From Opitutales bacterium (GTDB lineage Bacteria; Verrucomicrobiota; Verrucomicrobiia; Opitutales; UBA953): a stretch of DNA of 64,000 nt. Below, one piece after another: positions 14,440 through 59,084 of the stretch; the first letter of the stretch is position 1; each line of letters opens with the position of its first letter. Under the pieces are notes generated by a model, which saw nothing but the letters and a program-made list of their open reading frames with translations, had not been told where the DNA came from and searched no databases. The DNA lies in the NCBI GenBank assembly GCA_024697185.1, contig JAILGB010000029.1, positions 36,259 to 100,258 on the forward strand, written 5' to 3'. Made by a program: the position numbers and the translations under genes.

Positions 14440-15336
14440 ATGCTTAACAAATTATTCCCCATTTTAACAGTTCTCGCGTTGGCGCCCTTTGCGGCGGCGC
14501 AGGACACGGCCGTTCCCGAAGTGACGGAAGCCACGCTCGCTCCGGCATCTGAATCTGCCGGCCTCGTGGCTGCAATTCCGGCGGAAAAAACCTTGGAATA
14601 TTATAAGGTCTTTGGCGCGCTGATTTCCGCCAATATCGGTTTGGGCAACGTGGGACTCACGGATGCCGAGATCAACGCGTTCGCGACCGGTCTCGCGGAA
14701 GGTCTTAAAAATCCGGATGCCGCCAAAACTTATCGGGATTTTATCAAGGAAAACGAAGTCGAATTCCAAATGTTCATCGGCTCGCTCCAAGAACGCGTGC
14801 AGGCAAAAATGATGGAGGAGCAAACGGCGGCGATGGAAAAAGAAATCGCGCAAAATCAGGCGGCGGGTCAGGCGTATATCGAAAAATGCCTGAAGGATCC
14901 CGGATTTAAAAAACTGCCCGGAGGAACATTGATCAAGGTGATTTCGGCCGGCGATCTCGCCGTTCCCATAAAGGCGACGAGCATGCTCTCCGCGCGCTAT
15001 ACGGGAACATTTGTCGATGGGACGATTTTTGACAGTAGCGATCGCAATCCCGAGACGGGCGAACCGCTTCATTTTTCGCCGGACGGCGAAGTGACGGAGT
15101 TCCCGTGCGCGTTGGAGATGTTGATCCCCGGCTGGATCGAGGCTTTGACGACGGTGGGCAAAGGAGCTAAGCTCACTTTGGTGATCCCGCCGGAACAGGC
15201 TTACGGCAACGAAGGCCCGCTTCCGCCCGCATCGACGCTTGTTTTCGATATTGAGATTGTCGATGTTAAAGAAGCGCCCGCCGAAGCGGAAGCAAGTGAA
15301 GACGGCGACGTTCCCGCTGATGACGAGGGAAAATAG
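14440..15336 (+). CDS. FKBP-type peptidyl-prolyl cis-trans isomerase (exported)
   Basis: Signal peptide MLNKLFPILTVLALAPFAAAQ; YTGTFVDGTIFDSS...GNEGPLPPASTLVFDIEIVDV. Confidence 0.92.
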   Translation: MLNKLFPILTVLALAPFAAAQDTAVPEVTEATLAPASESAGLVAAIPAEKTLEYYKVFGALISANIGLGNVGLTDAEINAFATGLAEGLKNPDAAKTYRDFIKENEVEFQMFIGSLQERVQAKMMEEQTAAMEKEIAQNQAAGQAYIEKCLKDPGFKKLPGGTLIKVISAGDLAVPIKATSMLSARYTGTFVDGTIFDSSDRNPETGEPLHFSPDGEVTEFPCALEMLIPGWIEALTTVGKGAKLTLVIPPEQAYGNEGPLPPASTLVFDIEIVDVKEAPAEAEASEDGDVPADDEGK

Positions 15337-15353: not shown

Positions 15354-15391
15354 AAAAATCTTGCGGGAACGCGCGTTCCCGCAAGATTTTT
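15354..15391 (+). terminator. Terminator made of a head-to-head GCGGGAACG pair
   Basis: 38-bp perfect palindrome AAAAATCTTGCGGGAACGC|GCGTTCCCGCAAGATTTTT. Confidence 0.88.
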
Positions 15392-15411: not shown

Positions 15412-15439
15412 TTGAAAAGTCTCGCGCCCGTGCTATAAT
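15412..15439 (+). promoter_or_regulatory. Sigma70-type promoter
   Basis: TTGAAA-N16-TATAAT. Confidence 0.65.
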
Positions 15440-15445
15440 GAAAGT

Positions 15446-15535
15446 TGCAGGGAAACCTGCTATATATCTTAAAAGTACGGCCTAGCTGACTTCCCCCCGA
15501 TGGTTCCTATCCTTTTCCCGTCGGGGGGTTTGCTT
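15446..15535 (+). ncRNA. Candidate structured leader or small RNA upstream of rplM
   Basis: GCAGG-GAAA-CCTGC GNRA hairpin (15447-15460) then CCCCCCGA...TCGGGGGG stem (15493-15500/15521-15528), downstream of a promoter. Confidence 0.4.
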
Positions 15536-15712
15536 TGTCGCGGGAACGCCGGATCTGTGGGGGATTGTTCAAAAATTTCTTGCATTTTTGCATCAAATAA
15601 TGTTTAATAAGAGTCCATTCTCAAATAAAAAACTTGGATTAACGGCAGTGTAGTTCTCCCACCCGATCATCTGAACAGTAGCTGCAGAGCGTCCAAACAA
15701 CACAAAAATCAA

Positions 15713-16169: not shown

Positions 16170-16565
16170 ATGAGCACTCCAGAAGTTTTCACAGCAGTCG
16201 GTCGTCGCAAAACGTCCAGCGCCCGTGTGCGTCTTTCGTATGGCAAAGGCAAAATGACCGTTAACGGCAAACCTTTGAACGAATACTGCTTCACCGAAGC
16301 CCTCGCAAAAACCGCGACTGCTCCCATCGCAGTCGCGGAGCTCGAAGGATCGCTTGACATCACCGTTCTCGTTAACGGCGGCGGCGTTTCCAGCCAGGCG
16401 GGAGCAATTTCGCTCGGCATCGCACGCGCTATCGAAAAATACAATTCTGAAAAGCGCGCTGTGCTTAAGAAAGCCGGTCTCCTCACTCGCGACGGTCGCG
16501 ATAAGGAACGTAAGAAAAGCGGTCAGCCCGGTGCCCGCAAGCACTTCCAGTTCTCGAAACGTTAA
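16170..16565 (+). CDS. rpsI: 30S ribosomal protein S9
   Basis: AVGRRKTSSARVRL...GLLTRDGRDKERKKSGQPGARKHFQFSKR. Confidence 0.97.
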   Translation: MSTPEVFTAVGRRKTSSARVRLSYGKGKMTVNGKPLNEYCFTEALAKTATAPIAVAELEGSLDITVLVNGGGVSSQAGAISLGIARAIEKYNSEKRAVLKKAGLLTRDGRDKERKKSGQPGARKHFQFSKR

Positions 16566-16589
16566 TCCAAGTTTTGGGAGAACTACCGA

Positions 16590-16626
16590 AAAGCCGTTTC
16601 CGCAAGTCGCGGGAACGGTTTTTTTA
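16590..16626 (+). terminator. Terminator after rpsI using a motif pair
   Basis: CCGTTTCCGC-AAGTC-GCGGGAACGG TTTTTTT, one G-U wobble. Confidence 0.8.
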
Positions 16627-16707: not shown

Positions 16708-16800
16708 GGAGAGGTGGCCGAGTGGCTGAAGGCAACGGTTTGCTAAATCGTCATAGGGTCTCAAGCCCTATCGTGAGTTCGAATCTCATCCTCTCCGCCA
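16708..16800 (+). tRNA. tRNA-Ser (GCT)
   Basis: Cloverleaf GGAGAGG...CCTCTCCGCCA, anticodon GCT, long variable arm, CCA encoded. Confidence 0.95.
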
Positions 16801-16829
16801 GTTTTGCCAAGTTGTTGTTGGCGTTGTTG

Positions 16830-16865
16830 TCGTTCCCGTGAAAATTTGCGGGAACGATTTTTTTT
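16830..16865 (+). terminator. Terminator after tRNA-Ser using a motif pair
   Basis: TCGTTCCCG-N10-CGGGAACGA TTTTTTTT. Confidence 0.82.
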
Positions 16866-16963
16866 GAGGCGCGTTCCCTGTCGCTTAGATATTGAGGCTG
16901 CGATTGGAAATTTATATAATTTTTTTTCGATTCAGGTTTAAATTTTCAGTGTTTTTATAAATT

Positions 16964-18517
16964 ATGTATTCCACCGTTTATTCCGGAGCTCTTAGGGGTG
17001 TTGAGGCTGTCAGTGTTCAAGTTGAGGCGAAATCGGGCATGTTGGGCGATTTTGCGATGATTGTGGTCGGTTTGCCGGACGCTGCGGTCAAGGAGTCGAG
17101 CGATCGCGTTACGGCAGCGTTTTCGAGTTGCAAACTTTCCTTGCCGTTTTCTAAGACGATTATCAATCTCGCTCCCGGCGATATTCGCAAGGAGGGACCG
17201 ATTTATGATTTGCCGATCGCCTTGTCGCTCCTGGTCGCCAACGGAACATTGCCGCCGGAGTGTCTGGAACGTTTTGTTGTCGCGGGCGAATTGGGTTTGG
17301 ACGGTGTGGTGCGCCCGATCCGGGGCGGCGTTTCCCTGGCGCTTTTGGCGCGCAAACAGGGACGGGATGTCATTTTGCCGCGAGTGAGCGCGGAGGAGGC
17401 TGCGTTAGTCGAGGGCGTCAATGTTTATCCGGTTGAGGACCTGACGGAATGTTTGAAATTTTTGAAAGGCGAAAAGGCGATTGTGCCGCTGACACCGGAA
17501 TCGAGTTCGTTCGCGAAAAGCGTTCCCGCGGAGTCCCTGCTTGATTTTTCAGAGGTCAAGGGGCAATACCAGTTGCGTCGCGCGGTGGAGATCGCCGTGG
17601 CCGGGGCTCACAACCTTTTGATGATCGGCTCTCCCGGTTCCGGGAAAAGTATGATTGCCAAGCGCATTCCGACGATTTTGCCGGAACCCGATTTGGATGA
17701 ATTTTTGGAAATTTTGGGAATCCAATCCGCGGCGGGAATGACGATTGTCGGCGATGAGCACGGAATCCAGCGGCCGTTTCGCTCTCCGCATCATACGATT
17801 TCGGATGTCGGTCTGATCGGTGGCGGGAGCGTTCCCGGTCCCGGGGAAATTTCCTTGGCGCACAACGGTGTTCTTTTTTTGGACGAGTTCCCGGAGTTCA
17901 AGCGTTCGGTGCTTGAGGTTTTGCGCCAGCCGCTTGAAGACGGCGAAGTGACGATTTCGCGGGCTTCGGCAAAAATTACCCTGCCGGCGCATTTTATGCT
18001 GGTGGCGGCGATGAATCCGTGTCCCTGCGGTTATTATGGGGACCGTCATCATCGTTGCACCTGCACGCCGACGCAGATCCAACGCTATCGTTCCCGCCTC
18101 TCCGGTCCTTTGCTTGACCGCATCGACATCCATGTCAACGCACCGACACTGTCGATCGAAGAGTTGCGGACGGCGAAACCCGGCGAATCTTCGGCGACAA
18201 TGCGGGCGCGCATCGTGGCGGCGCGGGCGGTGCAGGAAAAGCGTTTTTCGCAGGACGCCTCTATGGGCCCCAAGACGCGTTGCAATGCGCGCATGACCAA
18301 CCGGCAGATTCAAAAATATTGTGAGCTTGGCGAAATGCAAAGTCGTATGTTGCAAATGGCGATGGAGCGTTTCGGCCTCTCGGCGCGCGCGTATAGCAGG
18401 ATTTTGAAAGTTGCCCGGACAATCGCCGATCTCGCCGGACACGAATCCATCGAAGCTCCGGATATTTCCGAAGCGATCAATTTTCGTCTGCTCGACAAAG
18501 CCAACGAACAGATTTGA
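16964..18517 (+). CDS. comM: YifB/ComM family Mg-chelatase-like AAA+ ATPase
   Basis: [25 protein letters not shown]...[19 protein letters not shown]...CPCGYYGD. Confidence 0.93.
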
Positions 18518-18533
18518 CGTTCCCGCGGGAACG
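18518..18533. repeat. Perfect palindrome of two overlapping motifs
   Basis: CGTTCCCGCGGGAACG directly after comM stop codon. Confidence 0.9.
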
Positions 18534-20582: not shown

Positions 20583-22043
20583 ATGGAATACGAAGCGGTT
20601 ATCGGACTTGAGATTCATGTGCAACTGAAGGCGAAGAGCAAAGTTTTTGCGGGAACGCCGGCAGGTTTTGGCGAAGAGCCGAATCTGTTGATCGATCCGA
20701 CGGTTTTGGCGTTGCCGGGAGCATTGCCTGTGCTCAATCGCGAAAGCGTCGAGAAATCGATGAAATTCGGATTGATGATCGATGCCAAGATGCCGACGAT
20801 CTCCCGCTGGTCGCGCAAAAATTATTTTTATCCGGACTCCCCTAAAAACTATCAGATCACCCAGCTGGCGGAAGAGGCGATCGTCGGGCCGGGCGAGGTG
20901 GAAATCGAGTTGCCGGGACCGTCGCGCAATGTGATGGGAGAGCACAAAAAGATTCGTATCAACCACGCGCACTTGGAGGAGGATGTCGGCAAACTGACGC
21001 ACGGCGGGAACACTTCGCTCGTCGATTACAATCGCGCGGGAACGACCCTGCTTGAAATCGTCACCGAGCCGGATATGCATTCCGCGGAAGAGGCGGTCGC
21101 CCTTTTGAACGCGATTATTATGATTTTGCGCGCGGCGGGACTTTCGGATTGCGATATGGAAAAAGGTCAGTTGCGCTGCGACACCAACGTCTCGGTGCGG
21201 CCGGCGGGAACGCAGGAATTGCGCACGCGGACGGAGATGAAAAACGTCAATTCGTTGACAGGCGTCCGCAATTGTATCAATTTTGAAATCAAGCGTCAGG
21301 CGGCGGCTTATGAACGCGGCGAAACGATTGTCCAGGAGACGCGCGGCTGGAACGCCGAAACGGGGCACACTTATAGTATGCGTTCCAAAGAGAATGCGCA
21401 CGACTATCGCTATTTCCCCGATCCGGATCTGATGCCGGTTAAAGTTGACGACGCCTGGCTGCAACGTCTCGCCGCCACTTTGCCGGAACGTCCCTTTGAC
21501 CGCCAGCGCCGTTATATGGCGGATTACAAGCTGCCTTACACGGTGACGTCTGTCCTGATCCCGGATTTGCAGTTGTGCGAATATTTTGAAGCGTCACTGA
21601 AAGCCTGCGGCAAAAATCCGCAGCAAACGGCAAATTTTTTGATCAATGAAATCTTGCGGGAACTCGCCGCTATCGGTCCTGAAGCGACGATCGCACAAAG
21701 CAGAATCGCTCCCGAAGCGCTCGCCGGACTTGTCGAGGTTGTCGAGGCGGGAACGATTTCCAAACAGCAGGCAAAAGAAGTTTTTGCCGAGATGTGGACG
21801 AGCGGCAAGCCGGCTGCGGCGATCATCGAGGAAAAAGGTTTGTCACAGTCCAACGACAGCGGCGCGCTTGAAGCGATTATCGACACTGTGCTCGCGGACG
21901 CCAAAAACATTTCTCTTGTCGCAGCTATCAAAGGCGGGAACGATCGTGCGATCAACGCTCTCAAAGGGCAGGTGATGAAGGCTGCCAAAGGCAAGGCGAA
22001 TCCCGCACAGGTCGATGCGATTTTGCGGGCGAAACTGGCGTAA
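20583..22043 (+). CDS. gatB: Asp-tRNA(Asn)/Glu-tRNA(Gln) amidotransferase subunit B
   Basis: MEYEAVIGLEIHVQLKAKSKVFAG...YFYPDSPKNYQITQ. Confidence 0.95.
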   Translation: MEYEAVIGLEIHVQLKAKSKVFAGTPAGFGEEPNLLIDPTVLALPGALPVLNRESVEKSMKFGLMIDAKMPTISRWSRKNYFYPDSPKNYQITQLAEEAIVGPGEVEIELPGPSRNVMGEHKKIRINHAHLEEDVGKLTHGGNTSLVDYNRAGTTLLEIVTEPDMHSAEEAVALLNAIIMILRAAGLSDCDMEKGQLRCDTNVSVRPAGTQELRTRTEMKNVNSLTGVRNCINFEIKRQAAAYERGETIVQETRGWNAETGHTYSMRSKENAHDYRYFPDPDLMPVKVDDAWLQRLAATLPERPFDRQRRYMADYKLPYTVTSVLIPDLQLCEYFEASLKACGKNPQQTANFLINEILRELAAIGPEATIAQSRIAPEALAGLVEVVEAGTISKQQAKEVFAEMWTSGKPAAAIIEEKGLSQSNDSGALEAIIDTVLADAKNISLVAAIKGGNDRAINALKGQVMKAAKGKANPAQVDAILRAKLA

Positions 22044-22125
22044 AACCGTTCCCGCAAAAGCCGTTCCCGCGCTGTTTACGTTTTGCGGGAACGCCTTCAA
22101 AAATTGAAAAGATTTGAGAAAAAAG

Positions 22126-45763: not shown

Positions 45764-45801
45764 AAAAACCGTTCCCGTCAAAGTTTCGGGAACGGTTTTT
45801 T
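45764..45801 (+). terminator. Terminator after sdhB using a motif pair
   Basis: AAAAACCGTTCCCG-TCAAAGTTT-CGGGAACGGTTTTT perfect 14-bp stem. Confidence 0.9.
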
Positions 45802-50783: not shown

Positions 50784-50809
50784 CCGTTCCCGAAAAGTGG
50801 CGGGAACGG
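50784..50809 (+). terminator. Motif-pair hairpin after dinG-like gene
   Basis: CCGTTCCCG-AAAAGTGG-CGGGAACGG. Confidence 0.65.
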
Positions 50810-59055: not shown

Positions 59056-59084
59056 GTTCCCGTGAGGAGTTTCCTCGCGGGAAC
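59056..59084 (+). terminator. Motif-pair hairpin
   Basis: GTTCCCGTGAGGA-GTT-TCCTCGCGGGAAC, one wobble; weak T tract. Confidence 0.6.

Follow-up and report, generated by a model that had tools for sequence, protein, structure and literature searches.

Uptake sequences and terminators in described systems

Facing copies of uptake motifs were found by Kingsford et al. (PMC1852404) in ~55% of the high-confidence terminators of Neisseria and in 17-29% of the terminators of Pasteurellaceae, with one preferred arm order. Inverted pairs occur in all genomes with DUS dialects (Frye et al., PMC3630211), and uptake motifs are known from just two families (PMC12616744). Copies of the Neisseria DUS are spaced roughly every 1.1 kb (PMC2397512). 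A further dispersed motif, the palindrome HIP1, is associated with methylases (PMC4390886). No report of a motif like the one described here was found for Verrucomicrobiota in the literature searched.

The preliminary description of this DNA had cited inverted pairs of the Neisseria DUS and the Haemophilus USS as established terminators, a precedent that is correct (PMC1852404), and had taken hairpins of the same build as the closest parallel for an uptake function. The terminators are strongly supported by the data below, but the step to DNA uptake is by analogy only.

Abundance and distribution of the motif

The window (the whole stretch of 64 kb analyzed, G000:C5:36259-100258) is part of a draft MAG (G000; 1.59 Mb, 32 contigs, 97% complete), and the nearest named relatives are Puniceicoccales/Opitutales MAGs. 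Statistics on motifs and terminators refer to a 443 kb sample of G000, in which genes were called by a simple codon model, and to smaller samples of congeners; whole genomes were covered by pattern counts only. Gene and terminator callers were home-made.

The most over-represented word in the window was CGGGAACG (200 copies, ~17 expected), which forms the core of the nine-letter word GCGGGAACG, the best form of the dispersed motif (124 copies, 6 expected). The motif is sharp, with an 8-bp core and little information past one base on either side. Throughout G000, GCGGGAACG occurs 3488 times in both orientations, i.e. once per 456 bp, against 48 copies of the reversed control word. Such numbers lie in the range of uptake sequences (at least ~1000 copies, far above expectation). 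Of the 61 family genomes compared, the motif is carried only by the eight that belong to this genus: six (G000 and five of its seven congeners) hold 3060-4396 copies each, G019 holds 743, and G027 holds 336. In the 53 genomes from four other genera, it stayed at background level. As with motifs of the DUS/USS type, it is specific to a lineage and common to close relatives.

Density in the 443 kb sample was 2.98 copies per kb within genes and 4.71 per kb in intergenic DNA, and 1135 of the 1429 copies were located in genes, where they encode A/T/S-G-T, R-E-R or x-V-P-x. The highest values (18-19 per kb) were reached in the first 40 nt past stop codons, compared with 2.7 per kb over the 20 nt immediately upstream of starts. 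No consistent bias with respect to gene or GC-skew direction was detected (contig C17, 237 F and 230 R copies with 84% of genes on one strand; contig C13, 166 and 86).

The motif-poorest region found was not foreign DNA but an AT-rich core region (G000:C15:16000-32000; 32-39% GC vs 51%) with 2 copies in 16 kb, where ~50 were expected. A foreign origin was ruled out by dnaN, mnmG, mnmE, and argS and by a GC-skew switch near dnaN; on the same grounds, the stretch is likely the replication-origin region. About 14 kb of core genes around dnaN are almost free of the motif in G000. The same region of a congener (G015:C1:60000-76000) is also AT-rich (37-45% GC), with about half the usual motif density.

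Motif-pair hairpins in the window

Facing copies of the motif form hairpins after several genes of the window. In the following list, R-F denotes the arm order CGTTCCCG...CGGGAACG and F-R the opposite one.

14440..15336, + strand: gene for an FKBP-type peptidyl-prolyl isomerase, preceding the palindrome (Pfam FKBP_C, 1.8e-15; NCBIfam FKBP models)
15354..15391, + strand: 38-bp perfect palindrome in F-R order, predicted intrinsic terminator hairpin (from its fold, position at stop+17, and T tail)
15412..15439, + strand: sigma-70-like promoter, TTGAAA-16-TATAAT with TG, reading into the rplM-rpsI operon (11/12 consensus matches alone)
16170..16565, + strand: rpsI, ribosomal protein S9 (ORF; tblastn orthologues in congeners and sister genera)
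16589..16626, + strand: predicted terminator hairpin after rpsI, built from an exact and an imperfect motif copy and followed by T7 (-23.7 kcal/mol, z -5.35, stop+24)
16708-16800: tRNA-Ser(gct)
16829..16866, + strand: R-F motif-pair predicted terminator after tRNA-Ser(gct), then T8 (-19.1 kcal/mol)
16964..18517, + strand: comM, YifB family Mg chelatase-like AAA ATPase (Pfam; NCBIfam TIGR00368, 2.8e-171)
22047..22095, + strand: hairpin downstream of gatB (stop at 22043) involving three motif copies, no clear T tract (-22 kcal/mol, z -3.6)
45764..45801, + strand: R-F motif-pair predicted terminator after a 2Fe-2S/4Fe-4S (sdhB-like) gene, T6 (-21.6 kcal/mol, z -5.8, stop+19)
50784..50809, + strand: R-F motif-pair hairpin after a helicase gene, weak pyrimidine tail (-17.3 kcal/mol, z -1.97, stop+9)
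59056..59084, + strand: hairpin from one exact and one truncated (5′ arm) motif copy, poor T tail (-24.3 kcal/mol, z -6.4, stop+36)

The 38-bp perfect palindrome that had been reported after the FKBP gene is present letter for letter. Positions 15354-15391 read exactly AAAAATCTTGCGGGAACGC followed by GCGTTCCCGCAAGATTTTT, begin 17 nt past the FKBP stop codon, and are followed by the T tail TATTTTGTCC. The RNA is predicted to fold into a 17-bp stem with a 4-nt loop (-26.0 kcal/mol, z -6.7), which no shuffled sequence matched. Its arm order, GGGAAC..GTTCCC (F-R), is the minority one; most of the other hairpins reported with it, like most pairs in the genome, show GTTCCC..GGGAAC (R-F). The sigma-70-like promoter sits 20 bp beyond this hairpin.

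All five further motif-pair hairpins of the preliminary description exist where it had placed them, but two (16590 and 59056) contain an imperfect arm, and the tails at 50784 and 59056 are weak. A good stem together with a T tail was found at 16590, 16830, and 45764. At 16590-16626, the mismatched arm GTTTCCGC retains pairing as G.U, and at 50784-50809, 9 of 200 shuffled sequences folded equally well. The hairpin at 22047..22095 had been missing from the earlier list. Motif pairs with a weak or absent T tail occur at 18518, 22062, 50785, and 59056. Among the strong terminator-like hairpins following protein genes in the window, five of seven contain the motif.

Between the strong promoter-like site and rplM (15440-15545), we also noted a 270-nt leader that holds two hairpins, a small one and a strong GC one, CCCCCCGA..TCGGGGGG, with TTTGCTTTG after it. 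The arrangement resembles an attenuator or a small RNA gene; this region matched no Rfam family and showed no similarity among the congener loci compared. An Rfam search of the 64-kb window returned tRNAs only, with miRNA matches to the palindrome far under gathering scores.

Position, flanks, and covariation of facing pairs

In the 443 kb sample of G000, 38 intergenic R-F pairs with a gap of 3-20 nt were counted, compared with 11.7 ± 3.1 expected when copies were placed randomly within the same intergenic regions (500 trials; maximum 23, none reaching 38). The excess of inverted pairs after genes, whose absence had been named beforehand as the outcome contrary to a terminator function, is therefore real. 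Intergenic F-R pairs numbered 7 (12.1 expected) and same-direction pairs 37 (24 expected) in the same sample. Of the R-F pairs, 25 start 20-39 nt past a stop codon. Facing pairs with a gap of at most 20 nt were frequent in convergent regions (12 pairs, ~20 regions available), intermediate in tandem regions (40 pairs, ~173 regions), and rare in divergent ones (2 pairs, ~25 regions).

Around intergenic R-F pairs, the 12 nt downstream contain 5.8 T on average and the 12 nt upstream 6.5 A, against only 2.5 T and 2.3 A for R-F pairs within genes. The six outer nucleotides were complementary at a rate of 0.608 in G000 (0.444 ± 0.027 with shuffled partners, 0/2000) and of 0.671 in clade B (0.569 ± 0.022, 0/2000). 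Complementarity of the outer bases above that of shuffled partners shows covariation that lengthens the stem. Terminator-like hairpins followed 75 of 178 gene ends but only 8 of 178 in dinucleotide shuffles, and the 75 strong hairpins carried the motif in both arms (39; 52%), in one arm (6), or in none (30). The features of intrinsic terminators are thus assembled in these elements: a GC-rich hairpin with a T tract, a position just past stops with avoidance of the region before starts, and compensatory change.

Judged from sequence, the hairpins are very probably intrinsic (Rho-independent) terminators whose stems consist of two facing copies of a motif dispersed for another reason. In the proposed mechanism, transcribed CGTTCCCG...CGGGAACG with 3-6 further covarying pairs would form a hairpin trailed by a U run, and RNA polymerase would stop ~20-60 nt past the stop codon; that polymerase actually stops there is what we infer. 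With a motif this common, adjacent copies that face each other would be readily available and could have been co-opted into terminators, and selection for termination would then keep pairs, spacing, and T tails. Alternatively, the hairpins could protect mRNA 3′ ends or pause polymerase instead of terminating transcription, in line with the missing T tails at some of them (22062, 50785). As most hairpins come with T tracts and adjoining stops, and convergent regions are favoured over divergent ones, we regard such a role as improbable.

Conservation and loss among congeners

Terminators with the motif in both arms were also detected in samples of the motif-rich congeners (G002, 38%; G015, 46%; G011, 56%, although with few terminators in G011; small samples of G007 and G023, 1/9 and 1/2). 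Their share was 29% in G019, 6% in G027, and 0% in four sampled genomes of sister genera. Whole-genome counts of R-F pairs (gap 3-20) followed the same order, with 175 in G000, 171, 176, 136, 130, and 133 in the motif-rich congeners, 73 in G019, and 15 in G027; the reversed-motif control gave 0. Position, energy, T tracts, and covariation, together with the presence in congeners and the absence in the sampled sister genera, strongly support the formation of terminators from facing motif copies.

In a tree of ten genes with strong support for all forks, G019 and G027 grouped together as sisters of G000, and the other five motif-rich species formed a second clade. These positions are most simply explained by a motif already present in the ancestor of the genus, most copies of which disappeared in the lineage of G019 and G027; that the same word was gained twice independently is less likely. 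In G019, single copies have fallen to 0.19 of the G000 density (0.61 vs 3.22 per kb), R-F pairs to 0.32 of the G000 level (73 per 2.1 Mb vs 175 per 1.59 Mb). G019 would thus keep ~9 times more intact pairs than predicted by independent loss of the arms (73 vs ~8), a figure that presumes the G000 state as starting point. Paired hairpins outlasting single copies are expected if termination preserves them. No surplus retention of pairs relative to singles was seen in G027 (15 pairs).

For one gene, the orthologous ends carry motif pairs in G000, G011, and G015, and G027 has GCGTTCTCGCAG..CTGCGAGAGCGC with a T tail; here the motif is gone and the hairpin was kept through changes in both arms. Often, a motif pair in one species corresponds to a motif-free hairpin or to no hairpin at the orthologous end in another, so that no single pair is indispensable.

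Motif sites within genes were intact at 30% of the sites aligned between G000 and the distant clade B, compared with 5.8% for control 8-mers (p 1e-26). In the sister species, they did not exceed the control (G019, 5.6% vs 4.1%; G027, 6.6% vs 5.4%). An apparent excess of one-mismatch sites in G019 and G027, seen on few genes (32% vs 11-17%), faded when more genes were included (19% vs 12%, p 0.065; 20% vs 14.5%, p 0.26). Only the absence of excess conservation is robust for these two species, not an "erosion" of motif sites. A motif dialect was likewise dismissed: G019 has the same motif at lower density, and G027 has no replacement 8-mer. We also observed many intergenic arrays of a degenerate C-rich unit in G027 (CACCAC[C/T]AACCC plus a 6-8 nt spacer, ~18-bp period), which is absent from the over-represented words of G000.

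Competence genes and pilins

The genus possesses ComEC, DprA, ComM, a PilQ-type secretin, and PilB/PilT-type (T2SSE) ATPases, together with at least seven proteins resembling type IV pilins, among them a four-pilin cluster and a short pilin; no secretin turned up in the fragmented G023. Machinery for competence and type IV pili accompanies the motif, as it does DUS and USS, but it is also present in motif-free genera. Since the set is equally complete there and in G019 and G027, it does not discriminate motif-rich from motif-poor genomes. For the motif-poor species, we considered and rejected the idea that a competence gene or the short pilin had been lost, because both species still encode ComEC, DprA, and the short pilin.

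Full-length relatives of the short type IV pilin-like protein (G000:C8:16428-16826; ~130-156 aa) were found only in this genus, and it is a possible candidate for a DNA receptor. As a separate observation, G019 (C36) and G027 (C62) encode a second secretin along with an additional ATPase and additional pseudopilins, resembling type II secretion. This set occurs in sister genera too and is absent in the motif-rich species searched, a distribution that requires two losses on the ten-gene tree.

Possible reasons for the dispersal of the motif

Called terminators contain only 6.6% of all copies, so termination cannot account for the abundance of the motif. That the motif is primarily a terminator element, its abundance being the sum of all terminators, would agree with the density peak just past stop codons. 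This reading is already refuted for the bulk of the copies, given the 1135 of 1429 located in genes and the conservation of coding copies between G000 and clade B, and it retains very little probability. A mobile repeat of the REP or MITE type that inserts after genes is similarly hard to credit. Copies are clustered in intergenic DNA and arranged as inverted pairs, but a longer shared and mainly extragenic unit was not found: conservation fades within 1-2 bases of the 8-mer, most copies encode protein, and alignments with clade B showed gaps at motif sites (0.075 and 0.021) not clearly more often than at control sites (0.042 and 0.022). Tentatively, the motif could be a HIP1-like or protein-binding chromosomal signal (for methylation, repair, nucleoid or recombination-hotspot binding) from which terminators were co-opted. 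A density near that of cyanobacterial HIP1 (described in PMC4390886), the sharp 8-bp core, and the dispersal through coding DNA fit this alternative, which we nevertheless consider rather unlikely: CGGGAACG differs from its own reverse complement and is not a palindromic 8-mer, and the lack of a consistent strand bias argues against KOPS- or Chi-like polarity.

By analogy, DNA uptake is the best candidate reason for the dispersal, well motivated by copy number, competence genes, and terminator pairing. Competent cells would bind DNA bearing the motif, repeated uptake and recombination would enrich it, and terminators would arise as a by-product, as in Neisseria and Pasteurellaceae; this addresses the presence of the motif and is compatible with the terminator explanation. 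Several findings agree with it, namely (i) the 3488 genus-confined copies in both orientations; (ii) ComEC, DprA, one PilQ-type secretin, PilB/PilT-type ATPases, the four-pilin cluster, and the genus-restricted short pilin, with comM in the window; (iii) a terminator share resembling that of Neisseria (PMC1852404); and (iv) the retention of motif copies at identical codons in G000 and clade B, not in G019 and G027. Set against these are the equally complete competence genes of motif-free genera, G019, and G027, the detection of no more than a candidate receptor, the nearly motif-free dnaN core stretch, which speaks against a simple rule of enriched core genes, and the consideration that any very abundant short motif could be co-opted as a terminator. 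On balance, we give uptake an even chance. The same evenly poised judgement applies to the fuller proposal of a true uptake sequence of independent origin in Verrucomicrobiota, the third besides those of Neisseriaceae and Pasteurellaceae, with co-opted terminators and a maintenance that lapsed in G019 and G027 though their competence genes persist.

Comparison with known systems

The same signature, an abundant motif whose facing copies make up about half of the strong terminators, appears here in another phylum. Even without uptake, the co-option of a dispersed motif for termination would recur across phyla. If the motif is an uptake sequence, it would offer an independent third case of how such sequences start, persist, and get lost, as well as a natural experiment in which two motif-poor sister species can be compared with relatives that keep motif codons at ~60-70% protein identity.

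The closest likeness is to the Neisseria DUS (GCCGTCTGAA). In both systems, two facing copies of an abundant genome-wide motif supply the arms of hairpins that lie after genes and bear A and T tails, one arm order is preferred, and convergent regions are enriched; the share of terminators with the motif is ~55% there (PMC1852404) and 52% (both arms) here, as determined by a different caller. Unlike the DUS, the motif described here is unrelated in sequence, belongs to another phylum, is ~2-3 times denser (456 bp vs ~1.1 kb), and is only a candidate uptake sequence; its tails lie outside the motif, and the stem is lengthened by covarying pairs beyond it. The Pasteurellaceae USS (AAGTGCGGT, ACAAGCGGT) shows the same co-option in 17-29% of terminators (PMC1852404), but its sequence is unrelated except for a shared GCGG, and its arm-order bias is weaker than that of Neisseria (PMC1852404), whereas the bias is strong here (38 R-F, 7 F-R). 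HIP1 of cyanobacteria (GCGATCGC) is likewise a very dense, dispersed, lineage-specific 8-bp motif; in contrast to HIP1, the present motif lacks palindromic symmetry, and terminators arise from it only where two copies face each other. The arrangement of uptake motifs as terminators is so far known from Neisseria, Haemophilus, and relatives, and what is new here is its occurrence in a genus of Verrucomicrobiota with an unrelated word.
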